DNA from: Spirochaetota bacterium
GTDB lineage: Bacteria; Spirochaetota; UBA4802; UBA5368
Assembly: GCA_004297825.1 (NCBI GenBank)
Contig: SCSX01000058.1
Coordinates: 1-50,366, forward strand
Length of the DNA stretch: 50,366 nucleotides
Direction: 5' to 3'
Every line of letters begins with the position of its first letter. Position 1 is the stretch's first letter. The notes beneath the pieces were generated by a model. It was not told the origin of the DNA. It saw only the letters and a list, made by a program, of their open reading frames with translations, and searched no databases. This document shows positions 4,556-50,320 of this stretch, piece by piece. The translations under genes and the position numbers were made by a program.

Positions 4556-4758
4556 AACGATGCGCCCAGCCGCTCGGCGATCTCGATGAGGGGGAAGCCG
4601 GTCCCGCTTCCCAGGTCGAGCACGCTCATGCCCGCACGGTACGGAATCTCGTCAAGGAGCGCCATCCCGAACGGCGCCGACCAGAGAGACATCTCGTCGA
4701 GCGCGGACACGAGGCAGGGTTCGTCAAGGTTGAAGCCTTCCCGGCGGGCTTCAGGCAT
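4552..4758 (-). pseudogene. 5' fragment of a class I SAM methyltransferase
   Basis: The 68-codon frame encodes the start of a SAM-dependent methyltransferase: SLWSAPFGMALLDEIPYRAG followed by motif I, VLDLGSGTGFPLIEIAERLG, and then stops at once. Normal family members run to 200-270 residues. Its ATG at 4758 overlaps the stop of the radical SAM gene (4751) by 8 bases, the usual sign of a coupled downstream gene, so it was probably a working operon member. The break falls within a few bases of the stop codon of the convergent 2165-4555 gene, which points to a recombination junction near 4552-4560. A short peptide could still be made but cannot be a complete enzyme. Confidence 0.8.
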
Positions 4759-6397
4759 ATCGGCCCCCCAATTTTTTTAGGATATCCATGATGTTGCGCA
4801 CGCGGAAATCGTGGGGGTTTCGCGAGAATGCCTCTCCCGCGCAGAGCTTCGCCTCGTCGCGCTTCCCGAGCGCGAGCAGGCTTTCCGCGCGCTTGAGCCA
4901 GCCGCCGTAATAGCGGGGGACGATGCTCGTCACCCGCGTATAGTATTCCGCGGCTTCCTCGAATTTCCCCATGTAAAAGAAGATTTTTCCAAGGCGGAGG
5001 AATCCCCAGGGATTGTCCGTGTATCGGCCCGCCACGCGCAGGTAGCTGGCCTCGGCCTCCTGGAAGCGTTCGTTGTCGCGGTAATAGTCGCCCTCCAGGA
5101 TGTCGGTCACCCAGCACTCGGGGCCCGCGACGCGCCGGTGAAGCCTGAAGTCCTTCTCGCGGTACCACGAATGCTCGCGTACCACGCCCAGCTCGGCGAG
5201 GAGCATCGAGATCCATTTCGCGACGTCGGCATCATCGCGTAAAAAAATTCCCGATTCCCCGCGCGCGGACCATATGCCGTCGTCGATCGCCCCCGCCCGC
5301 TTCCGGTCCTCGTAAATGGATGTGCCGGGGTAGAGCGCGACGGGCGAAACGATGCCGTCCCCGGGAAGGGTCTGCCGGATGAGGCCGATCGTTTTGCGCA
5401 CGTCGGCGAGCTTCTCGCCCTCCATCCCCGCCATGAGATAGTAGAAGACATACAGGCCCACCCGGCGCGCGATGCGCGCCGCCTCCTGGACCTGCTGCAC
5501 GGTGATGCCCTTGCGGTAACGCTCCAGCACCTGCGCGGAGCCGCTCTCCACGCCGAACTGGATCTGCTCGCACCCGGCGAGTTTCATCTCGACGAGCATC
5601 TCCTCGTCCACGGTATCCACCCGGGACTGGCAGTTCCACATGACGTACATGCCGCTTTCCCGGAGCCCGCGGCAGAATTCGATGACCCTGTCCCTCCGGA
5701 GGGTGAAGTTGTCGTCCCGTATGGAAAAGAAAATGATGCCGCGCTCACGGTACAGGTATTCGATCTCGCGGAGTATGTGGGCCGCGCCGCGGAACTGAAC
5801 GGTGCGCTCCCACATCCCCGGAGAACAGCAGAAGGTGCACGCGTAGGGACAGCCGCGGGAGGTGATGACGGTCTTGAACTGCTCGTTCACGTCGACACCG
5901 GACATGGGCCCGGCATAACTCCCCGGCGAAGGAAGCTTGTCCAGGTCGCGGATGCGCTCGCCATGGAAGACGCCCGGAGGCGGCGCCTTGCCCGCCTCGA
6001 TCTGTTTCAACAGCGCGGGGAGGGCGTTCTCCGCCTCCCCCGAAATGATGTAGTCGAGGCCCGGTGCGCGCGCAATGAGCGTATCGGCCAGGGCGGTCGC
6101 ATGCGCTCCCCCCGCAATGGTCACAAGGCGCGGCGCGCGCTTCTTCGCCTCTTTCAGGAGCCTTAGCGTATCGATTCTGTTGTGCGTGAAAAGTGAAACC
6201 GCCACCACGTCCGGGGAAAGCTCCTCGATCTTCTGAAGCGCCCCGCGCACGCCCTCCTTTGAAAAATTCGCGAGGTGCACGTCGAAGCCCGACCCGTGGA
6301 GCTGCGCGGCGAGGGACACCGCGCCCACGGGGAGCATGGACAGAAAGTAATCATGCCGGTCGGCATGGTGGCAGAGATACGCGATTACCGTTTTCAT
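4751..6397 (-). CDS. B12-binding-domain radical SAM protein with C-terminal TPR repeats
   Basis: 548 residues. Residues about 1-140 are a Rossmann-like cobalamin-binding domain (PVGAVSLAAQLHGSGFDVHL, SPDVVAVSLFTHN, AGGAHATAL), without the DxHxxG lower-ligand motif, as in many BchE-type proteins. The radical SAM core follows, with the cluster motif at Cys183, Cys187 and Cys190 (RGCPYACTFCC), plus CEQIQFGVESGS and a GE/GD strand typical of the Elp3/MiaB/NifB superfamily. Residues about 430-545 hold TPR helices (EGDYYRDNERFQEAEASYLR, GKFEEAAEYYTRV). Such proteins modify lipids, cofactors or peptides; the substrate here is unknown. The truncated methyltransferase gene overlaps its 3' end and may once have acted on the same product. 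The TPR tail suggests a protein partner or a scaffolded substrate. Confidence 0.88.
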   Translation of the reverse strand: MKTVIAYLCHHADRHDYFLSMLPVGAVSLAAQLHGSGFDVHLANFSKEGVRGALQKIEELSPDVVAVSLFTHNRIDTLRLLKEAKKRAPRLVTIAGGAHATALADTLIARAPGLDYIISGEAENALPALLKQIEAGKAPPPGVFHGERIRDLDKLPSPGSYAGPMSGVDVNEQFKTVITSRGCPYACTFCCSPGMWERTVQFRGAAHILREIEYLYRERGIIFFSIRDDNFTLRRDRVIEFCRGLRESGMYVMWNCQSRVDTVDEEMLVEMKLAGCEQIQFGVESGSAQVLERYRKGITVQQVQEAARIARRVGLYVFYYLMAGMEGEKLADVRKTIGLIRQTLPGDGIVSPVALYPGTSIYEDRKRAGAIDDGIWSARGESGIFLRDDADVAKWISMLLAELGVVREHSWYREKDFRLHRRVAGPECWVTDILEGDYYRDNERFQEAEASYLRVAGRYTDNPWGFLRLGKIFFYMGKFEEAAEYYTRVTSIVPRYYGGWLKRAESLLALGKRDEAKLCAGEAFSRNPHDFRVRNIMDILKKLGGRYA

Positions 6398-6549
6398 TCA
6401 TCGTTCGGGGGATGCGGGAAATAATTCTGCCGCGTCCCCCCGAAGCCTGCGTCCCGTTTACTTTTTTTTCAAGTTATTAACTTCCTGCTTGCTTATTTTT
6501 TGCAGCCGGGCGCACACTACACGCGCTTATCCCGGACCGATACAAAATA

Positions 6550-7725
6550 ATGAGGATGCAATTCAAGCCGTTTTTTCTTGCGCCCCTCCTGTGCGCGATC
6601 GCATTTGTCGTGTCTCCATGCCCTTTCGCCGCCGCCCAGGAGAAGGCCCCGGGCGAGGCGCTCAAGGATGAGGAGGCGAAAAAGAAGCTCGCCGTCATCG
6701 ACCGGAACGGATTCCTGGTTATTCCCGTCGCCTACTACAAGCCCGAAACCAGTTTCGCGGGTGGGGGCGCATTCATCACCTATTTCCGCACCGACGACGA
6801 CAAGGTCGACGAGGAAAACAACCTGCCCCTGCACCTTCGCCCCTCGTCGGTCGCGACGACCCTTACCTACACGGAAAAAAGGCAGATTATCTGGGAGCTT
6901 TTCCCCGAGTTCTACCTGGACTATGAACGATACCACCTTTTAGGATCCATAGAATACCAGAAATACCCCAACCAGTTCTGGGGAGTGGGCAACGATACGC
7001 GCGCCGGCCAGATGGAAAAGTATACCGAAAATACCCTGCGCGTGCGCAGCGATCTCCAGCGCGAAGTCGCCCACAAACTCTACCTGGGTCTTATCTACCA
7101 TTACGAACACAACCGCATAAGCGAGTTTGAAGAGGGCGGCATCATAGACCAAGGCGGCGTCCGCGGGACCAGGGAGGCCGCGGCGCAGGGATTGGGCTTT
7201 TCGGTCAATTTCGACGTGCGCGACCACGACCGCTACACCACGAGGGGCGGCCTCTACCAGCTCACCTGTACCGCCTTCAACCCGGTATTCAACAGCGACT
7301 ATAACTTCGTCAAATGGACGCTCGACATAAGGCAGTTCTTTCCCCTGTGGTGGAATCACGTGCTCGCCCTCCAGGGTTACGGGGTGATCATATCCGGCAA
7401 GCCGCCCTTCGAGATGATGGCGCTCCTGGGCGGCAAGCGAATCATGCGCGGTTATTACGAGGGGCGCTACCGCGACGAGGACCTGCTCACCGCCCAGGCG
7501 GAATACCGCATGCCCCTGTTCTGGAGGCTGGGCCTCGTCGGGTTCGCGGGGGCGGGCGAGGTTTCGCCCACGCTCAACCGGTTCACCGTGGACGGGATCA
7601 GGTACGCCTACGGCGGGGGACTGCGCGCGAGCATAAACCAGATGGAAAGGATGAACATCCGTGTGGACGTGGGACGCAGCCCCGGGTTTACCGGGGTGTA
7701 CGTTACGCTGGGCGAAGCGTTTTAA
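6550..7725 (+). CDS. Outer membrane surface-antigen (Omp85/BamA-like) beta-barrel protein
   Basis: 391 residues. A signal peptide (hydrophobic stretch LLCAIAFVVS then PFAAAQ) is followed by the start pattern IPVAYYKPETSFAGGGAF, typical of the C-terminal barrel of the bacterial surface antigen family. Barrel strands end in phenylalanine (VTLGEAF), the outer-membrane sorting signal, and GGKRIMRGYYEGRYRDED matches the conserved RGY-type region of loop 6 in Omp85 proteins. There are no POTRA repeats: only about 35 residues separate the signal peptide from the barrel, so it is a barrel-only member rather than BamA itself. It is convergent with the peroxiredoxin gene, 4 bases apart. The region upstream (6398-6549) is divergent with the radical SAM gene and probably carries both promoters. 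Confidence 0.85.
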   Translation: MRMQFKPFFLAPLLCAIAFVVSPCPFAAAQEKAPGEALKDEEAKKKLAVIDRNGFLVIPVAYYKPETSFAGGGAFITYFRTDDDKVDEENNLPLHLRPSSVATTLTYTEKRQIIWELFPEFYLDYERYHLLGSIEYQKYPNQFWGVGNDTRAGQMEKYTENTLRVRSDLQREVAHKLYLGLIYHYEHNRISEFEEGGIIDQGGVRGTREAAAQGLGFSVNFDVRDHDRYTTRGGLYQLTCTAFNPVFNSDYNFVKWTLDIRQFFPLWWNHVLALQGYGVIISGKPPFEMMALLGGKRIMRGYYEGRYRDEDLLTAQAEYRMPLFWRLGLVGFAGAGEVSPTLNRFTVDGIRYAYGGGLRASINQMERMNIRVDVGRSPGFTGVYVTLGEAF

Positions 7726-7729
7726 AGTT

Positions 7730-8383
7730 CTATTTCGGTTTTACCATTTTCTGCCCCGGGCGCCAGCTCGCAGGGCAAAACCCGCCGTCGCTCTCCCTTA
7801 CCGCGACAGCGGCCTCGAGCTTGCGCAGGAGCTCGGCCGCGCTCCTTCCGATGGCCTCATCATGCATCTCGCAGGCCACGATAGTGCCCTCGGGCGATAC
7901 CACGAACGAGGCGCGCATCGCGATACCCCGGTCCTCCGCGTATACACCCAGCGCGCGCGACAGTCTTCCCGCCTGGTCCGAGAGCATGGGATAGGCGATC
8001 TTTTTAATGTCTTCGTTCTGTTCGGCCCAGGCGCGGTGCGCGTAGACGGAGTCGGTACTCACGCTGACGACCTCCGCGCCCGCCTTGCGGAACTGGTCAT
8101 AGGAATCGGCCATCTCCCTGAGCTCGGTGGGACACACGAACGAGAAATCGGCGGGATAAAATATGACGACGAGCCATTTCCCCCGGAAATCGGCGAGCTT
8201 TACTTTTTTGAGCGCGCCCTTGTGGAAGGCGTCCAGTTCCAGTCCGGGGAACGCGCTGCCTATAAGCTGCTTCGGCATCGATTGCGCGCCGTCCGTTGCT
8301 TTCGCGGGTTCGACCGGCGGCCTGGAACAGGCTAAGAGTGCTGCCGCGGCGATGAGGGTTGTCATGATTGGTAAATGTTTCAT
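7730..8383 (-). CDS. Lipoprotein peroxiredoxin (AhpC/TSA family)
   Basis: The ATG at 8383 is chosen because GGAG sits 7 bases upstream and the product then begins with a lipoprotein signal peptide, MKHLPIMTTLIAAAALLAC, with lipid-bearing Cys19. The mature protein is a typical 2-Cys peroxiredoxin: peroxidatic Cys84 in YPADFSFVCPTEL and resolving Cys203 in GGFCPASWRPG. It would reduce hydrogen peroxide or alkyl peroxides at the periplasmic face of a membrane; most 2-Cys peroxiredoxins are cytosolic, so the lipid anchor is the odd point. The electron donor is unknown; the VKOR-DsbA fusion at 19.7 kb shows the cell has periplasmic thiol chemistry, but no direct link can be claimed. A longer frame upstream (to 8437) is not used. 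Confidence 0.92.
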   Translation of the reverse strand: MKHLPIMTTLIAAAALLACSRPPVEPAKATDGAQSMPKQLIGSAFPGLELDAFHKGALKKVKLADFRGKWLVVIFYPADFSFVCPTELREMADSYDQFRKAGAEVVSVSTDSVYAHRAWAEQNEDIKKIAYPMLSDQAGRLSRALGVYAEDRGIAMRASFVVSPEGTIVACEMHDEAIGRSAAELLRKLEAAVAVRESDGGFCPASWRPGQKMVKPK

Positions 8384-8817
8384 TGTGGTTCTCCTCAACT
8401 CGAAACAAGGGAAACGATAACCGGTTACTGTGAGCATTTCTCAACGGTTGATCTTGTTCCTAATTATATCCGCGCCATGTCGAATGACAAGCTGTTTTCG
8501 GCAAGACCTGCTCATTATACTAATAAACTGTAAATAGAGAAGGTCGAATTGGCGCCCAGCAATCGGGGGTTCAGGGGATAGAATTCGATTCCCATTCGTC
8601 AATCAAAAACCTAACTTTTTCATACCTCATTTTTTCAATTTTAACTATTAACTTTTTCTTTTATGTAATATATAATTGCATCCCATATTATGTGGCTAAC
8701 AATGTATTGTTTTCCTTAATTAGCAAATATATTGACAAAAGTAAATATATACAGAATCCTGATTCCTGTAAGTTAGGAATAATGTGGTTGTATTTATAAT
8801 TAGGATAATACAATATA
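8384..8817. other. AT-rich spacer, left edge of foreign island
   Basis: 434 bases without a supportable gene. The first 60 are the peroxiredoxin leader. From about 8500 the base composition drops sharply to AT-rich and stays so until about 11,930. A motif CTGTAAATAGAGA at 8528-8540 recurs at 42,235-42,247 and nearly at 28,993. A promoter-like region at 8762-8800 serves the following operon. No tRNA or direct-repeat attachment site is evident. Confidence 0.6.
8762..8800 (+). promoter_or_regulatory. Probable promoter and operator-like inverted repeat of the three-gene island operon
   Basis: ATTCCT (8762-8767) and AGGAAT (8775-8780) form a perfect 6-base inverted repeat with a 7-base spacer. 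A consensus -10 box TATAAT follows at 8795-8800, 17 bases before the ATG at 8818. The repeat covers the place of a -35 box, so a protein bound there could block transcription. Restriction-modification operons often have such controller sites; that this one is regulated is inference. Confidence 0.45.
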
Positions 8818-9930
8818 ATGGCTATGCAAGAACCTAAAGCATTAATAATAAATTCAATTCACGTTGATCGCCTCCTGTTTGATGATGAAAATCCTCGATT
8901 AAGTGCAATTGGAGTAAAAAAGACGCAAGATGATCTACTTCGTGTCCTTTGGGATGAAATGGCTGTGGACGAGGTTGCATTATCTATTGCTGCAAACGGG
9001 TACTTCGAGGAGGAGCCACTTTTTGTTGTTCCGCTGCTGCCAATCGAAAAATCCCAAATCAAGCAAAAATACGTCGTCGTTGAGGGAAATCGACGGTTAG
9101 CAGCTGTTAAACTATTGATAAATGCCGATCTACGTCGTCTAACAAAAGCCACTGACCTTCCAAAAATAAATATACAGCAGCGAAAGGCACTCGAACAATT
9201 GCCTGTATCTGTTTATACTGATAAAAAATCACTTTGGGAATATTTCGGTTTTCGGCATGTCAATGGTCCTAAAGAGTGGGATTCATTCAGTAAAGCCGCC
9301 TATATTGTAAAAGTTCGCCGAGAATGGAATGTCCCACTGAATGAAATTGCCCGTAAAATAGGTGATCAGCACAGTACAGTAAGCCGTATTTATCGAGGTT
9401 ATGTTCTTCTAGAACAAGCCGAAGGAATGACCGAGTTTGATCGCAATGACCGAATTGCAAACCGTTTTTACTTTTCACATCTTTATACTGCAGCTGATCA
9501 AAAGGAATTTCAGCATTTCTTGGGCATAGACGCTGAACGCTCACTAAAAGATAATCCCGTGCCCAAGGTTCATCTAAAACAGCTCCAAGAACTTATGGTC
9601 TGGTTATTTGGAAGTAGAAGTGAAGGTAAATCACCGGTCGTCGAAAAACAAAATCCTCATCTTGGATATCTCCGTCATGCAATCAGCAATAAACAGGCGC
9701 TCTATGCCCTGCGTTCCGGCATCAGTCTTCAACGTGCCTATGAGATAAGTCTAGGAGATGCTCGACGTTTTCAGGAAGCTTTGGTAAAAGCGAAAGACGC
9801 GCTTCAAGAAGCCAAGGCAACCATCACCACTGGATACAAGGGTGATAAAGAAATGTTGCAGCTCATGGAAGGCATACTTAATGTTGCCAACAGCATATCC
9901 GATGAGATGCACAAAATTATTAAAGAGTAA
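8818..9930 (+). CDS. ParB/Srx-domain protein with HTH, first gene of putative defence operon
   Basis: 370 residues. Residues about 10-135 form a ParB/sulfiredoxin-type domain: INSIHVDRLLFDDENPRLSA, then YVVVEGNRRLAAVKLL at about 85-100, which aligns with the GxxRR nucleotide-binding box of ParB (canonical GEHRRLAA; here EGNRR). Residues about 170-195 form a helix-turn-helix (VPLNEIARKIGDQHSTVSRI). The C-terminal 60 residues are helical and charged. No partner ParA is present and the codon use is AT-rich, so this is not the chromosomal ParB. Its stop is 2 bases before the next ATG, so it is cotranscribed with the putative nuclease and methyltransferase. ParB-like domains in such settings can bind DNA with CTP/ATP, act as nucleases or regulate; which applies here is not visible. 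Confidence 0.85.
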   Translation: MAMQEPKALIINSIHVDRLLFDDENPRLSAIGVKKTQDDLLRVLWDEMAVDEVALSIAANGYFEEEPLFVVPLLPIEKSQIKQKYVVVEGNRRLAAVKLLINADLRRLTKATDLPKINIQQRKALEQLPVSVYTDKKSLWEYFGFRHVNGPKEWDSFSKAAYIVKVRREWNVPLNEIARKIGDQHSTVSRIYRGYVLLEQAEGMTEFDRNDRIANRFYFSHLYTAADQKEFQHFLGIDAERSLKDNPVPKVHLKQLQELMVWLFGSRSEGKSPVVEKQNPHLGYLRHAISNKQALYALRSGISLQRAYEISLGDARRFQEALVKAKDALQEAKATITTGYKGDKEMLQLMEGILNVANSISDEMHKIIKE

Positions 9931-9932
9931 TA

Positions 9933-10808
9933 ATGTCAAAAAGCATTCCCCTACCCTCAGATATAACAGACCCAATTATTTTAGCAGATTGGCTTGAGTT
10001 AATTGCACTCACGGCGGCTGATGGTAATTCGAGCCATGGTGACCTACAAAGAGTGCTAAATCGCCTGGGTGTTGAAAATCTTGATACTCTGTGCAATGAT
10101 ACCATGCGTGAATTAAATAGACGTGTGACATCGTCAAAAGATAGCTACCCATTTTCTTTCTCGGGGACATTACTTAAAGTCAGAAATAATTGGAAATGTT
10201 TTTCGCCTTATATATTTTGTCTTCTCCTTTCATATTGCGATAATTCAAAAAAGAGCGTTAAAGGATTTCGTCATGAGGTAATGTTTGAGCAATTATCTTG
10301 CATAGCCGCTAAACACTACATCGGTGGTGATTCGCTGAGATTCGGTTTTCCTCGAGATACTTTGCCCAGCGGTTTTCTTCAAGCTTTGAAACATGTTTGC
10401 GGACAAGTAGGCGAATGGACTGTCTCACGCCGCACCAATACACTTAGAACGAAGGATGGCGGGTTGGATGTAATCGCATGGAAATCTTTTCCTGATCAAC
10501 TTATTGGAAAGCTTATTTTATTTGGTCATTGTGCTTCAGGTGAGAACTGGAATGAGAAAATAAACGAGCTTCAGCCAAATGATTTTTGCAGCCAATGGCT
10601 TGATGGAGATAAAAGTCCCATTGTTAAATCTTTTTTTATTCCCCACAGAGTATCTCCCGAGATATTTGAGCATCGCGCCATTTCAGCAAAATTGTTTTTC
10701 GATCGGTGCCGTATTGCTTATTGGGCTACAGCAGACGAGTTTAACCATACCACAATTGGGAATAATTTAAAGTGGTGCGAGAAAATGTTAAAGAGGATAA
10801 GGTCATGA
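9933..10808 (+). CDS. Putative PD-(D/E)XK-like nuclease of the island operon
   Basis: 291 residues, not recognised as a named family. An N-terminal helical part (1-105) is followed by a helix KGFRHEVMFEQLSCIAAKHYIGG with acidic residues at 115 and 119, then DGGLDVIAWKSF (Asp175, Asp179, Trp183, Lys184) and LILFGHCASGENWNEKI. A helix with Glu, then Gly-x-Asp in a strand, then a strand with a polar residue and Lys is the layout of PD-(D/E)XK nucleases, although the exact (D/E)xK motif is degenerate, so the nuclease call is inference. It lies 2 bases after the ParB-like gene and its TGA overlaps the methyltransferase ATG (ATGA at 10,805-10,808). This gives it the position of a restriction enzyme in a restriction-modification operon. 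Confidence 0.7.
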   Translation: MSKSIPLPSDITDPIILADWLELIALTAADGNSSHGDLQRVLNRLGVENLDTLCNDTMRELNRRVTSSKDSYPFSFSGTLLKVRNNWKCFSPYIFCLLLSYCDNSKKSVKGFRHEVMFEQLSCIAAKHYIGGDSLRFGFPRDTLPSGFLQALKHVCGQVGEWTVSRRTNTLRTKDGGLDVIAWKSFPDQLIGKLILFGHCASGENWNEKINELQPNDFCSQWLDGDKSPIVKSFFIPHRVSPEIFEHRAISAKLFFDRCRIAYWATADEFNHTTIGNNLKWCEKMLKRIRS

Positions 10809-11920
10809 ATGCGCGCAGATTACCGCTTCATGCCATTTGTCCCTATTTTGCCATGTTCCCCGAGAGTTTTGTCAGGGAATATGTTGAAGCATACACCAAT
10901 ACCGGCGATTTAGTTTTTGATCCTTTTTGCGGTCGCGGAACTACAATTTTAGAATCCCTGCTTTTGGGCAGAAATGCAGCCGGGTCAGATATAAATCCAG
11001 TCGCATATTGTGTTTCACGAGCGAAAGCCGAGCGACCAAAACTTAATAGTATAATTTCGCGCCTCAGGGAGGTGGAAAAGATTTACCAAAATTCTGTTAT
11101 AGTTCAAAATGAGAAGTATCGGCTATTGTTGCCTCCATTTTTTCGACGCGCATTCTATCACACCACATTGAAAGAATTACTATTTTTACGACATACTTTA
11201 GATTGGAAGAATAATAAAATTGATAGATTCATAGCAGCTCTAGTTATCGGCTCCCTTCATGGAGAAATGGGTCGTTCCACCGCTTATTTCAGCAACCAAA
11301 TGCCACGCACAATTTGCCTTAAGCCTAATTACTCTTTACAATATTGGGGAAAACATGAATTATTTCCGAAAAAACGCCGTGTCTTTGCAATGCTTCAGCA
11401 AAAAGCCGAGTATCGGTTGATGGATATTCAAGCTAATTCTAAAGGTATGGTACGGCTTGCAGATTCACGCAAAGTATCTTCTGTTTTCCGAAGTCAGTGG
11501 GGAAAAGTGGAACTAGTTATTACCTCTCCGCCGTATCTAAATGTTACTCGATATGAAGAAGACCAATGGCTACGACTCTGGTTTTTAGGAGGACCGCCCT
11601 ATCCAACCTATGGGAAGATATCCAGAGATGATCGTTATGAAGTAGCGAATAAATATTGGAAATTCATAGAAGACTCTTGGGCTGGACTTGTGCCTTTGCT
11701 CAAAGAAAATGCGAAAATCATTGTTCGATTAGGTGCAATTGGACTCAATGAAGAGGAGATGACAATTCAATTTATTAAGTCCGTCAAGAATGTATTCCCA
11801 AAGGCCCGATTAATTCAAAAACCCAAATATACCGAAATCGTTAGGCGTCAGGCACAGAGTTTTTTACCTTCAAGCAAAGGATGCCTCTACGAGATTGATT
11901 ATGTGTTGTCTGTCTGTTAA
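10805..11920 (+). CDS. DNA methyltransferase with TSPPY motif
   Basis: 371 residues from the ATG at 10,805, chosen because it overlaps the upstream stop (ATGA) and has AGAGG upstream; a GTG at 10,772 would overlap the neighbour by 37 bases. Motif I is FDPFCGRGTT (residues 38-47), followed by GSDINPVAYC; the catalytic motif IV is TSPPYLN, about two-thirds along. TSPPY is typical of amino-methyltransferases acting on N4 of cytosine, sometimes N6 of adenine. The order motif I then motif IV differs from the usual beta-class order (IV before I). The stretch between them, about 190 residues, may hold the target recognition part. As last gene of the operon it would protect host DNA from the putative nuclease. 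Confidence 0.88.
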   Translation: MNARRLPLHAICPYFAMFPESFVREYVEAYTNTGDLVFDPFCGRGTTILESLLLGRNAAGSDINPVAYCVSRAKAERPKLNSIISRLREVEKIYQNSVIVQNEKYRLLLPPFFRRAFYHTTLKELLFLRHTLDWKNNKIDRFIAALVIGSLHGEMGRSTAYFSNQMPRTICLKPNYSLQYWGKHELFPKKRRVFAMLQQKAEYRLMDIQANSKGMVRLADSRKVSSVFRSQWGKVELVITSPPYLNVTRYEEDQWLRLWFLGGPPYPTYGKISRDDRYEVANKYWKFIEDSWAGLVPLLKENAKIIVRLGAIGLNEEEMTIQFIKSVKNVFPKARLIQKPKYTEIVRRQAQSFLPSSKGCLYEIDYVLSVC

Positions 11921-11971
11921 AGTGGCACCGGACATCATCAATACAACCCGCCATTTATACCATATGTGATA

Positions 11972-12150
11972 TTAAACCATGATCTCTTCAATCTTCACCT
12001 CCCCATTCCCTTCTCGATCAAAAATAACGTTCTTTAGAATTTCGGGTAAAGGTGTATCCACGTAAATTATCGGCCCCGCGAGAAGACACGCGGATTCAGG
12101 AAATGGGGCGTCGATACGGAAATTTCTTCGACGGGTGCGGGATTCCGTTC
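11972..12150 (-). pseudogene. Orphan C-terminal fragment of an unidentified protein
   Basis: Reading the minus strand upstream of a TAA at 11,972-11,974 gives an uninterrupted, protein-like frame of about 55 codons ending ...GPIIYVDTPLPEILKNVIFD and then REGNGEVKIEEIMV. It has no start codon of its own and overlaps the tail of the SNF2 remnant in another frame. The amino acid pattern is clearly coding-like, but I do not recognise the family. It is best read as the 3' end of a gene whose front was lost, next to the right edge of the AT-rich island. Confidence 0.45.
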
Positions 12151-12536
12151 CGGGAGTGCCGGCTCCCCACCCATATTCTCTCCTCGATGGAGTCCCTCGC
12201 GATCAGGTCAATCACGGTGACCGATGCGCTTTTCTGCCCGATCCGCACGAGCCTGCCGATCCGCTGGTTAAGCTTCGCGGGGTTCCAGGGCGGTTCGATA
12301 TTGATGACGCAATCGGCGCCCTGCAGGTTCAGGCCCAGCCCGCCCGCGTCCCGCAGGGACAGCATTACGTCGTAATCGCAGAACTCCCCTCCGACCACGT
12401 AGGCATATTCATTCGCAACCCGGTCCGCGCGCGCAATCCTGTACTGTCCCAGCCTGTACATCCCCTCCCCGCGCGCGAACTCGATGGGCGAGTGCGCAAT
12501 GATGTTCCTGATGGTGTCCTCGGTGAGTGTGAACAT
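12096..12536 (-). pseudogene. SNF2-family helicase remnant with large internal deletion
   Basis: From the ATG at 12,536 the first 55 residues (LTEDTIRNIIAHSPIEFARG onward) look like the N-terminal SWIM-type region of bacterial SNF2/DEAD helicases, where a conserved FARG-x-x-x-Y pattern occurs. The frame then passes directly into helicase motifs V and VI: DAGGLGLNLQGADCVINIEP, PWNPAKLNQRIGRLVRIGQK and DLIARDSIEERI. All of motifs I to IV, several hundred residues, are missing. The junction lies near 12,350. After SIEERI the frame continues as a non-homologous tail of about 25 residues. The normal protein has about 900-1100 residues; this one has 146 and cannot be a working translocase. Confidence 0.8.
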
Positions 12537-12729
12537 GAGGGTCCCTCGCCATTTAGCGTATACGGGGAACGGGGCGCCGTGCAGCGGCATCCCCGTTCCT
12601 TCCGATTTCTATACGCGCGGGAGGACCTTTTAGTAAGAGGAAATATCGGACATGAAAAAAAGGTGCACTACGGCCTGCCCCTCGGTGAGGGGGGAACCGG
12701 GGTTTTGCCGGGACGTTGCGCGATCGTCT

Positions 12730-47470: not shown

Positions 47471-47946
47471 TGACTTGTGGGTAATGGGTAGATATTAATC
47501 GGGGGACCGATATCAGCCCCTCCCTCCCCGGCGCTTCTCCCTTTTACTGGTACAAAGCCCCCGACGAACCAGTAACGACCCCGATATGGAGCCGAAACGG
47601 AGATTATCAGGCAGATGACTGGACGACGCCCGGACAAAGACGGGCACACCAGTGAAGCCGCGCCCCAACACGCTCGCAAAGAAGCGCGGGGCCGGCGCTA
47701 AAAGCATAATATCGGTTGACTTATTGCATTTCCCCCGGTATCACGCTTCCAAGGATGCCCACCATGCACTTGGAAACAAATCCCGGCCCGGGAACCCGTT
47801 TCATGCCCGCCCCACCCTGTACGGCGCACCACGCGCCTCCCCGGCTGATCGAGATATACGTTTTGGCGGATTGTGTGATATCAGATTGCTGCTTGTTTGC
47901 TTCACTGCATGGTGGGGGTAATTATTTGCCAATTCCAGAAGATAGC

Positions 47947-48123
47947 CAGGTGCATTCGTTCGCGACACACCTGGTGGAACGGGGGACCGTTAGCCGGTAT
48001 AGCCAGGAGTTTTTGGGACACAAAAGCCCGTCGACGACAATGGTGTATACGCATGTGAGTACGGTTTCTTTTGGGAATAGCATGAATCCGTTCGACGGGT
48101 TTGATGATGACGTGAAGGTATAA
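47947..48123 (+). pseudogene. C-terminal fragment of a tyrosine recombinase/integrase
   Basis: The last 58 residues of an open frame are the C-terminus of a tyrosine recombinase: [27 protein letters not shown] with the catalytic tyrosine and the LGH motif, and a tail [10 protein letters not shown]. The residue before the box II HSFATH is Val where the conserved Arg belongs, and nothing upstream (boxes I, N-terminal domain) is recognisable. The tail pattern YTHVST...G...P(F/L)D is typical of XerD-like phage integrases; an integron integrase cannot be excluded. It is inactive and marks the left edge of the AT-rich nuclease region. Confidence 0.75.
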
Positions 48124-48248
48124 TTGCTTACGCGAAACGTTGCGGATAAACATTTCTTTCAATGGTTTAGGTGTAGGGTTGCGGGAAAGAGGGGTTGTAC
48201 GCAATTTTCGCGGTCTTATTCTTTAAAATAAATACAAAGGATCACTAT

Positions 48249-49686
48249 ATGGCAATTATAAAAGATCCGATCACATTCTCGAAGCAGTTTAAAATATCAA
48301 AAGTCGGATTAGACAAACTTGGAATATTCAATCCGACACTGAATGTTGATACAAAATTATTTATAGATCCATTATTGCTAGAAACTTGCAAACACCCTGA
48401 AATTTCATCTTCGTCGGAAGACTTTTAATAAATTTTTTGAAACTATAATCAAGTTATTATCTAAATCACATAAACATGATGATGTTGCTTGGCGAAATGC
48501 AAAACGATTATTACGATTTAAAGAAGTAAGTGGTATTTGTTTGGGGTATGGAGCTGCTTCAATACAAGGAAGTGGTTTTGGACCTTATTTGTCCGACAAT
48601 TTGATCAATAATGCTAAAGAAATAATAGATTTAGGCGTAAATGATCCAGATTTATTTTTGGTCTTGGCCTTGTTTGAAGAAGGAATTGGTCCTGATAGAA
48701 TTAGTGATATGACCGCCAATATAATAATTGAAGATTTATCAGTATTTAGTGAAAAAATATGTTCTTTTTTAAAAATAAATACTGACGAATTTAGCTGTAA
48801 TGGTAAACTGCTAAAATTCCCCACTAATCCTGTAAATCCAAAATTACCAATTATATTACTTCCGAAAGAAATATTACGTGATTTACCAATTGCAACGGAT
48901 TGGGACGGAGTATCAAGTGCTGCCGCTCAAAACCAGGATATTCGCGATAAAATAAATAAAGCAATAGGTGATATTTGGTCAACTAAATCAAGAAAAGTCA
49001 AAAGCTTTATTCGTGATCAGATTCGATCTAATAAAAATGCTTTTAATTTAATTTTAGCAGCTATGCATGAAGTCAGAAAAGCGCCTTACGATTATGAAAA
49101 CGACCCAGAGGGTTTCATAACATGGCAGAAATATATTCGCGAAATTATGGACATCCGTCCAGGAGCTTTTCAGAAATGGACAAATAAAAAATTATCTATC
49201 GAAGATATTATCTCATTGGTAGATGAAATCCTATTACAATTTAAATTGCTTGTAGAGAAGAAGGGATTGTGGAAAGAGTTTTGGGCAGGAGATAAAAATA
49301 GACCGGAAAAAAGTGCTCAAAGGTTATTTTTTGCAGTTGCGGACTCCTTTTGTAAAGCATATGATTTAGATTTATCACCAGAAGCTGATTCTGGTCGTGG
49401 TCCAGTTGATTTTAAGGTTTCGCAAGGAAACAAAAAGGTTTTGATTGAAATAAAACTATCCAACAATACAAATTTAGTGACAGGCTACATAAATCAATTA
49501 GAATTATACAAAGAATCCGAAGAAACAGCGCATGCTGTCTATTTAATTATTGATTTAGGAAACTCAGGTAAAAAGGAGGACGAATTATTAAGAATTAAAA
49601 ATGAATACAATAGTAAAAAGTATCCATTATCTCAGATTTATATAATTGATGGATCAAGGAAAATATCTGCCAGTAAAACAAAGTGA
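48249..49686 (+). pseudogene. PD-(D/E)XK nuclease-type gene interrupted by a +1 frameshift
   Basis: The ATG at 48,249 opens a frame of 59 codons (IIKDPITFSKQFKISKVGLD...) that stops at 48,428. The next frame, from about 48,420, continues without a gap as TFNKFFETIIKLLSKSHKH and through to 49,686. One extra G in GAAGACTTTTAATAAA explains the break. The rejoined protein of about 478 residues ends in a PD-(D/E)XK core: ADSGRGPVDFKVS, then KKVLIEIKLSNNTNL, with later QLELYKES. Codon use is strongly AT-rich. It may be a dead gene, a sequencing error, or less likely a programmed frameshift. It is followed within 30 bases by an attC-like element. Confidence 0.75.
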
Positions 49687-49710
49687 TTGATAAAAACTGC
49701 GAAAACTGCG

Positions 49711-49809
49711 TACGACATAGCATACCCGCTTCTTCGCTGCGCTCCTCGGCCTTCGGCACACCGCGATTGAAGCGTGGAACGCGGCGTCGGGTATGCTTTG
49801 ACGTTATAT
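49711..49809 (+). other. attC-like recombination site (integron cassette boundary)
   Basis: AGCATACCCG (49,719-49,728) and CGGGTATGCT (49,788-49,797) are perfect inverted repeats around a long, partly self-complementary centre. The right side continues as TTTGACGTTATATG, with a core GTTATAT at 49,803-49,809 close to the attC R' consensus GTTRRRY. The left arm continues outward with ACGACAT, matching ACGTCAA of the reverse complement in 5 of 7 positions; its triplet is TAC instead of the conserved AAC. Placed 25 bases after one stop codon and 35 bases before the next start, it fits an attC site. The length of about 99 bases is within the attC range. Confidence 0.55.
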
Positions 49810-49843
49810 GAAATTGGCGCCCTTGTGGGTTTACGGAAATCAT

Positions 49844-50320
49844 ATGAATAGAAAACCGCCGACTGAAGTATTAAGACAATTACGTGATGAAGTCAATTTT
49901 GGATGTCCTATTCCAAATTGTGGAAATCCTTATCTCACTTGGCATCATTTTGATCCGCCATGGCATATCAAACAACAGCATGATCCATCTGGTATGATTG
50001 CTCTTTGTCGTGATCATCATGATAAAGCTGATTCTGGTATTTATACAATTGATCAATTACATGAATTTAAAAGATCGGCCATAAACAATAATACTAATAT
50101 CAAAAGTAAATTTGAATGGTTACGTAGAGATATTTTTACCATGATAGGGAGTAATATTTATTTTAATACGCCACTAATATTTGAATATAATAATAATCCG
50201 ATCATTTGGTATAATCGATCTGACAATGGATATATGTTATTAAATATGGGGCTTCAGACTATCGTGTGGAATCCGGAAACAGGTCTAATCCACCTAAATG
50301 AAACAGAATTGCGGTTTTAA
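49844..50320 (+). CDS. HNH endonuclease-like protein
   Basis: 158 residues from the ATG at 49,844; the frame extends to 49,808, inside the attC-like site. Residues about 18-63 are an HNH domain: [20 protein letters not shown] and [13 protein letters not shown], with two Cys pairs for structural zinc (C21, C26, then C55 with H58) and the catalytic HH at 34-35. The C-terminal 90 residues are beta-rich ([18 protein letters not shown]) and not recognised. AT-rich codon use matches the preceding nuclease-like gene, so both probably came together. A role in phage defence is plausible but inferred. Confidence 0.82.

Follow-up and report, generated by a model that had tools for sequence, protein, structure and literature searches.

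A ParB-like protein and a predicted nuclease, paired with exchangeable DNA methyltransferases, probably form a phage-defence system of bacteria and temperate phages

The PD-lambda-5 system combines a ParB-like protein (A) with a Dam-like methyltransferase (B) and provides broad protection against phages in Escherichia coli. It has been described as a compacted restriction-modification and abortive-infection (RM+Abi) system and was assayed in a host without mrr (PMC9519451), which would fit an active new methylation pattern. Fusions of ParB to HEPN domains, as well as operons of a ParB nuclease, a DNA methylase and a HEPN protein (MAE_28990), were described by Anantharaman et al. 2013 (PMC3710099). 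Here, we focused on a three-gene operon in a 50,366-nucleotide contig of a Spirochaetota bacterium (assembly GCA_004297825.1, contig SCSX01000058.1, C58 of the 96 contigs of this 4.9 Mb genome), referred to below as the window. The operon encodes a ParB-like protein (P1), a predicted nuclease (P2) and a DNA methyltransferase (P3). P2 always denotes this protein and its family, whereas the bacteriophage is written as P2-phage and its relatives as P2-like prophages. The three-gene cassette is probably a phage-defence system, of which PD-lambda-5 is the nearest named relative. It is common to bacteria and temperate phages and essentially undescribed in the literature that we searched.

Conserved association of P1, P2 and a methyltransferase

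With P2 as bait, we collected 56 loci from GTDB genomes and IMG/VR contigs. P1 was located directly upstream of P2 in all 55 loci with room for it, and a methyltransferase adjoined the pair in 51 of the 52 loci with room (four contigs end too early to show one). These methyltransferases are of three unrelated kinds: 38 are Dam-like, 10 are N6/N4 enzymes like that of the window and 3 are C5-cytosine enzymes. When P1 was the bait and P2 was not used, 78 viral loci were found, about 24 of them on contigs already seen with the P2 bait. P2 was adjacent in 76 of 76 loci that did not end at P1, the remaining two being contig ends, and a methyltransferase was present in 73 of these 76 (C5 in 40, Dam in 29 and N6/N4 in 4); of the other three, two stop at a contig end and one has a C5 gene that is cut by the end of its contig. 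Among flanking genes of at least 200 residues, methyltransferases accounted for 72 of 104, compared to 5 of 180 among non-flanking genes. The arrangement is far beyond chance, as the adjacency recurs with either bait. P1 and P2 are an obligate pair, and the near-universal methyltransferase beside them is exchangeable.

An earlier note on this DNA, made from the sequence alone, had interpreted the operon as a defence system and named conserved co-occurrence of the three genes as a check. The trio indeed recurs in genomes and metagenome-assembled genomes (MAGs) of Spirochaetota, Pseudomonadota, Bacteroidota, Binatia, Parcubacteria, Actinobacteria and Chloroflexi, and in many prophages. Searches of plasmids added loci in Mesorhizobium (N6/N4, the locus of L012) and Vibrio (Dam), a pair in Neorhizobium and a degraded fragment. 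The P2 family is not one clone, since its 137 proteins fall into 51 clusters at 50% identity. Within 117 related genomes, a comparable P1, i.e., one with an E value far below the ~1e-4 to 1e-7 of apparently ordinary ParB proteins, was found only in G863, a genome from another family of the same phylum. Such a patchy distribution of the operon is what acquired DNA would show. A same-phylum genome carries the pair with a C5 methyltransferase (L118).

The exchange of METHYLTRANSFERASE was traced on a tree of P1 and P2 (51 rows), where methyltransferase type changes at least six times. Two of these switches are well placed: L014 (N6/N4) and L019 (Dam) are sisters with a support of 100, and L035 (Dam) is nested in an N6/N4 clade with a support of 98. 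At least six changes among three unrelated types fit a self-marking role that any methyltransferase could fill. That one P1-P2 backbone is combined with interchangeable methyltransferases of different chemistry argues most strongly for P1 and P2 as a putative restriction module and for the methyltransferase as the enzyme that would mark self.

Twelve of the first loci, as well as others, lie between gene A and the portal gene Q of P2-like prophages, where the pair is accompanied by a Dam or C5 methyltransferase. This site is a cos-proximal hotspot for anti-phage genes in P2-like phages (PMC9122126). By megablast, the Dam version was found in 20 and a C5 version in 48 of 5426 complete E. coli genomes, where the copies are annotated as ParB, hypothetical protein and DNA methylase. 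These counts leave unsupported the idea that the present system is the "putative plasmid partitioning system" reported for one in four P2-like phages (PMC9122126). The temperate phage Wphi (NC_005056) has, in the same place between A and Q, gp98 of the P1 family (2.6e-74), gp96 of the P2 family (9.7e-29) and mth, a C5 methyltransferase, and this gene order is also found in E. coli phages vB_EcoM-12474 and in Pseudomonas phage D14A. A tblastn search of isolate phages with the P2 protein of L048 gave no match, while the P1 search found Wphi and its relatives, so P2 lineages are too diverged for single-sequence searches. The obligate pair, the exchangeable methyltransferase, the relationship to the proven anti-phage system PD-lambda-5 and the residence in the P2-phage hotspot all go beyond the earlier note.

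Some loci have further neighbours. In two Bacteroidales loci, a PD-Lambda-5_A-like gene, a Dam gene, P1 and P2 stand in one row (L020, 5737-9900, and L023, 216-4379), and L009 and L025 contain a full PD-Lambda-5_A gene near P1-P2, which suggests that P1-P2 and PD-lambda-5 travel together or share a methyltransferase. In L002 and L024 (Neorhizobium, Rhizobiales), P1-P2 follow genes for a Z1-type ATPase and a protein with a PD-(D/E)XK motif, and L024 has a C5 methyltransferase gene still further upstream; here the pair is an add-on in a larger restriction operon. A dense defence cluster is found in a candidate-phyla genome, the Parcubacteria MAG with L007, where P1-P2-Dam directly follow another methyltransferase gene and one that matches a Type II restriction enzyme (REase_II, 3e-34; 4709-7860). 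One P1-P2 fusion (L033) is real as read, but it comes from a MAG and arises from the loss of two bases compared with L031, so it was given little weight.

The three proteins and their AT-rich locus

P1 (8818..9930, plus strand; 370 residues) consists of an N-terminal ParB NTPase fold, a central helix-turn-helix (HTH) and a helical C-terminus. In single-sequence Pfam searches the window copy is a weak match (ParB_N, E = 0.14), and 9 of 41 P1 relatives match ParB_N. P1 matches the PADLOC PD-Lambda-5_A models down to 6.7e-17, and an hmmsearch with the family profile retrieved a ParB chain of known structure (4umk, E 8e-5). The AlphaFold2 model (predicted local distance difference test score, pLDDT, 90.6) had 27 Foldseek matches at E <= 0.001, exclusively to ParB, Noc and KorB (E 1.3e-6 to 7e-4, probability 1.00), including ParB and KorB DNA-binding domains. 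Despite the weak Pfam scores of the window copy, the place of P1 in the ParB/Noc/KorB superfamily is firm at the level of family and fold. The EGNRRLAA box of the earlier note is present at residues 89-96, and the ParB fold is followed by an HTH, as that note proposed. The core of this box, the Box II or P motif EGNRR (GxxR; 9082..9096, plus strand), is invariant in 41 of 41 family members (E89, G90, N91, R92 and R93). As the arginine of GxxR is required for nucleotide binding in ParB-fold proteins (PMC12704722), P1 is predicted to bind a nucleotide. The HTH (9328..9387, plus strand) is indicated by a weak HTH_38 match at residues 171-190 and by model helices at 174-181 and 185-204.

P2 (9933..10808, plus strand; 291 residues) starts two bases past the P1 stop and has no sequence match in Pfam, NCBIfam, PADLOC or PDB. 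Among 43 members of the family, none has a convincing Pfam match and none a sequence match to a solved structure. The family corresponds to PHROG 14650/3984, of unknown function, and is called "hypothetical protein" in E. coli RefSeq genomes. The P2 model is confident (pLDDT 92.4, predicted template modelling score 0.91). In a Foldseek search of PDB, MspJI ranked first (probability 0.98, E 0.014), followed by VC1899, Cdn1, Can2 and Card1, with BamHI later, and in a viral library the model matched Mrr-domain proteins and restriction endonucleases. The prediction of a PD-(D/E)XK-like nuclease with a restriction-endonuclease-like fold is consistent but not overwhelming, because no match passes an E value of 0.001. 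With this predicted fold and the recurrence of the trio, the idea of a defence system survived two of the three refuting conditions named for it.

The two P2 motifs on which the earlier note had commented, DGGLDVIAWK (residues 175-184) and LILFGHCASG (194-203), are present and include candidate active-site residues. Asp179 (10467..10469, plus strand), a candidate metal-binding aspartate, is invariant (137/137). Position 199, the Q position of a QxK motif, is Gln in 133 of 137 members and His in the window (10527..10529, plus strand). A canonical Q-x-K, with Lys201, occurs in six members, and in nearly all others residue 201 is Ala or Gly. A second lysine, Lys209 (10557..10559, plus strand), lies eight residues past position 201 and after Trp206; it is found in 128 of the 129 members without Lys201 and is missing in five of the six with Lys201 (Fisher p 1e-7, uncorrected for kinship). 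We read this near-complete mutual exclusion as a candidate case of a catalytic lysine that has moved within an active nuclease family, with Lys209 as the putative relocated residue.

P3 (10805..11920, plus strand; 371 residues) is an N6_N4-type DNA methyltransferase of PF01555 (E 1.4e-18; 68.1 bits, above the cut-off of 26.7), and the methyltransferase motifs recognised earlier, motif I (DPFCGRGT, residues 39-46) followed by motif IV (TSPPY, 240-244), are confirmed. It is 43-52% identical to the third gene in nine other operons.

All three open reading frames (ORFs) are intact, and their coordinates, together with the GC profile, bear out the AT-rich island described before, in which P1 and P2 are two bases apart and the start codon of P3 overlaps the P2 stop by four bases (ATGA). 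GC content falls to 37-42% at ~8.5-11.9 kb, against ~60% in the genome, and returns to ~0.6 beyond the island. The operon is preceded by an ORF-free AT-rich leader of 358 bases, marked by the drop in GC (8460..8817, no strand assigned), which presumably contains its promoter or operator region. A TTAACT-17-TATAAT site in the leader (8648-8676) is not above chance, as 13 such sites were found and 10.3 expected. No convincing direct repeats or att sites bound the island.

The bordering region (12096-12590, minus strand) contains what is left of an SNF2 helicase gene, its N-terminal part now joined to its C-terminal one; in a same-genus genome (G761, contig C330), ~1.8 kb separates the two matching stretches. 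The island is not unique in the window, as there is a second AT-rich stretch (47716-50320; GC 0.33-0.36 at 48-50 kb). In it lie a C-terminal fragment of a tyrosine recombinase (47716-48123), an HNH-like ORF (49808-50320) and, between them, an ORF that shows a PD...EIK-like nuclease motif (48541-49686). A further AT-rich operon lies elsewhere in the same genome (L117; G000 contig C19, 496-4404, minus strand), where two P1-like ParB proteins of 327 and 335 residues flank a 496-residue SNF2 helicase related to ZorD/DpdE and a 144-residue protein in which DGFIPDVYA...IIGEAKT resembles a PD-(D/E)XK motif. This is possibly another ParB-based defence system.

A probable restriction-modification-like function and its alternatives

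We interpret the cassette as a restriction-modification-like anti-phage system in which restriction is the task of the P1-P2 module and self-marking that of the methyltransferase, with a probability of about 0.72. P3 would methylate a short motif in the DNA of its host. P1 would engage unmethylated DNA through its HTH and nucleotide-binding ParB fold, and would deliver or activate P2, which as a PD-(D/E)XK nuclease would cut that DNA. Beside this fixed pair, the methyltransferase would be an exchangeable module. We infer in the same way that methylation protects the host and that the whole restricts phages. For P1 itself, we favour recognition of DNA or activation of the nuclease over simple transcription control. 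A more specific version, in which P1 is a ParB-type nucleoside triphosphate (NTP)-gated clamp that loads at an unmethylated site like ParB at parS, closes on NTP, slides and licenses P2, while methylation of the loading site by any of the three kinds of enzyme marks self, is attractive but tentative and less likely than not. It would amount to a mechanistically new class of restriction-modification.

Several observations weigh against this interpretation. No experiment on any P1-P2-methyltransferase locus was found in the literature searched, with preprints, subscription papers, REBASE and the current DefenseFinder outside that search, so that a description there is possible. The fifty-second locus with room for a methyltransferase (L026) keeps P1 and P2 with a decayed Dam gene, which is unexpected under strict self-protection; this locus is from a MAG, and an assembly error may be the source of the decay. 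Both well-placed switches involve imperfect genes, as L019 P2 is without ~85 N-terminal residues and L035 P1 is frameshifted. P1 shows no hypervariable recognition region between L014 and L019, the closest N6/N4-Dam pair, and we therefore rejected a recognition region that varies with methyltransferase type. The nuclease fold of P2 rests on consistent weak matches and on residues, with no Foldseek match at E <= 0.001. Finally, among 137 members, His replaces the near-invariant Gln199 in the window P2 only, which leaves the activity of this copy less assured than that of the family as a whole; its catalysis may be relaxed or altered.

Other functions can be considered for the same genes. Addiction is a known property of restriction-modification systems, and P2 could be a suicide nuclease that methylation, or the methyltransferase itself, keeps inactive until a phage perturbs methylation, as in abortive infection or toxin-antitoxin systems. 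The RM+Abi description of PD-lambda-5 (PMC9519451) points in this direction. However, the cassette has no counterpart of the PD-Lambda-5_A C-terminal domain, to which P2 is unrelated, and plain restriction would equally lead one to expect a DNA nuclease with interchangeable methyltransferases. We consider this alternative unlikely.

P1 might instead be only a transcriptional regulator, analogous to a C-protein, with P2 alone acting as an ordinary Type II enzyme for the site that P3 methylates. P1 does have an HTH, comes first in the operon and resembles repressors such as KorB, and the 358-base leader could house an operator. Yet P1 is never apart from P2 in more than 100 loci, with any methyltransferase and in any orientation, including those where the methyltransferase is convergent and outside the operon. 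A regulator would also not be expected from the invariant nucleotide-binding box of P1, nor from the fusion of ParB modules to other domains in PD-Lambda-5_A and PDC-M38A, which suggests that the ParB part is a working subunit. This makes a purely regulatory P1 quite improbable.

In a modification-dependent, Type IV-like system, P1-P2 would attack modified DNA in the manner of MspJI and GmrSD, with the methyltransferase as a passenger of no related function or as a regulator. This would agree with MspJI, the best structural match of P2, which is modification-dependent, and with the ParB-type domain of GmrSD, although the GmrSD_N score here is very weak (E 0.09). Type IV systems need no methyltransferase, whereas one of three chemistries adjoins essentially every locus here, and a methyl-dependent nuclease beside the methyltransferase that produces its substrate would be self-destructive, so we regard this as very improbable. 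A partition or plasmid-maintenance locus, with P1 as a true ParB on a centromere and incidental neighbours, is hardly credible: PGAP does name the E. coli P1 a "ParB/RepB/Spo0J family partition protein", but the inspected loci have no parA beside P1, P2 and a methyltransferase are constant partners, the loci are chromosomal or in integrated prophages, and P1 is only distantly related to partition ParB proteins.

Comparison with known systems

Like PD-lambda-5, the cassette has a DNA methyltransferase alongside a ParB-like protein. P1 is homologous to PD-Lambda-5_A over the N-terminal ~300 residues of the latter (hhalign 99.6%, E 5e-25). A Dam-like enzyme is present in 39 related loci, and that of L027, the one that was scanned, matches PD-Lambda-5_B (2e-94). 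Unlike PD-lambda-5, the window has a separate P2 and an N6/N4 enzyme instead of Dam. The HTH region of P1 is opposite a gap in the PD-Lambda-5_A alignment, for which members were drawn from genomes, and P1 is without the C-terminal domain of that protein. The window operon is thus not PD-lambda-5 itself, as P1 matches only the N-terminal part of PD-Lambda-5_A and its methyltransferase is N6_N4. P2 fused inside PD-Lambda-5_A was rejected as well (hhalign 0.1%). A scan of viral contigs with a true PD-Lambda-5_A as query found nothing.

The gp98-gp96-mth genes of Wphi and the E. coli prophage copies are the same system as that of the window, except that the Wphi methyltransferase is a convergent C5-cytosine enzyme. 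Annotation of the Wphi genes goes no further than orf98, orf96 and DNA cytosine methylase, and no paper in the searched literature treats them as a restriction system. Versions of the cassette in Wphi and in some 70 complete E. coli genomes make its proposed function directly testable in laboratory E. coli.

The PADLOC candidate PDC-M38 is similar in that PDC-M38A (715 residues) opens with a ParB-HTH module that aligns to most of P1 (1.1e-16). Its C-terminal half (~350 residues) matches separate AAA/OLD-like ATPases and not P2, so PDC-M38A is not a P1-P2 fusion, and the window operon is not PDC-M38, as P1 stops after the ParB-HTH part. The operons of Anantharaman et al. (PMC3710099), also presumed to serve in defence, likewise place a ParB-type gene next to one for a DNA methylase, with a HEPN effector where we find the PD-(D/E)XK-like P2. 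GmrSD Type IV systems also combine a ParB-type domain with a nuclease in a restriction setting. However, their nuclease is HNH, they have no methyltransferase and P1 groups structurally with ParB/Noc/KorB; the window operon has no HNH domain and scores below the cut-off for GmrSD_N (DUF262; 13.3 versus 33.2 bits). It is not ParABS either, as no parA lies beside P1 in the window or the inspected loci. Classical Type II restriction-modification has separate genes for a PD-(D/E)XK nuclease, the predicted role of P2, and a DNA methyltransferase. It differs from the cassette, which has an obligate third protein of ParB fold and one nuclease family with Dam, C5 and N6/N4 partners.

If our interpretation is correct, restriction-modification would gain a widespread family with a nuclease that is unnamed in the Pfam, NCBIfam and PADLOC libraries searched. 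The ParB fold, known mainly as a cytidine triphosphate (CTP)-gated clamp in chromosome segregation, would then act as the recogniser or activator of a restriction nuclease. Across these systems, the ParB-HTH unit looks like a shared sensing module that is combined with different effectors, P2 being the effector here.

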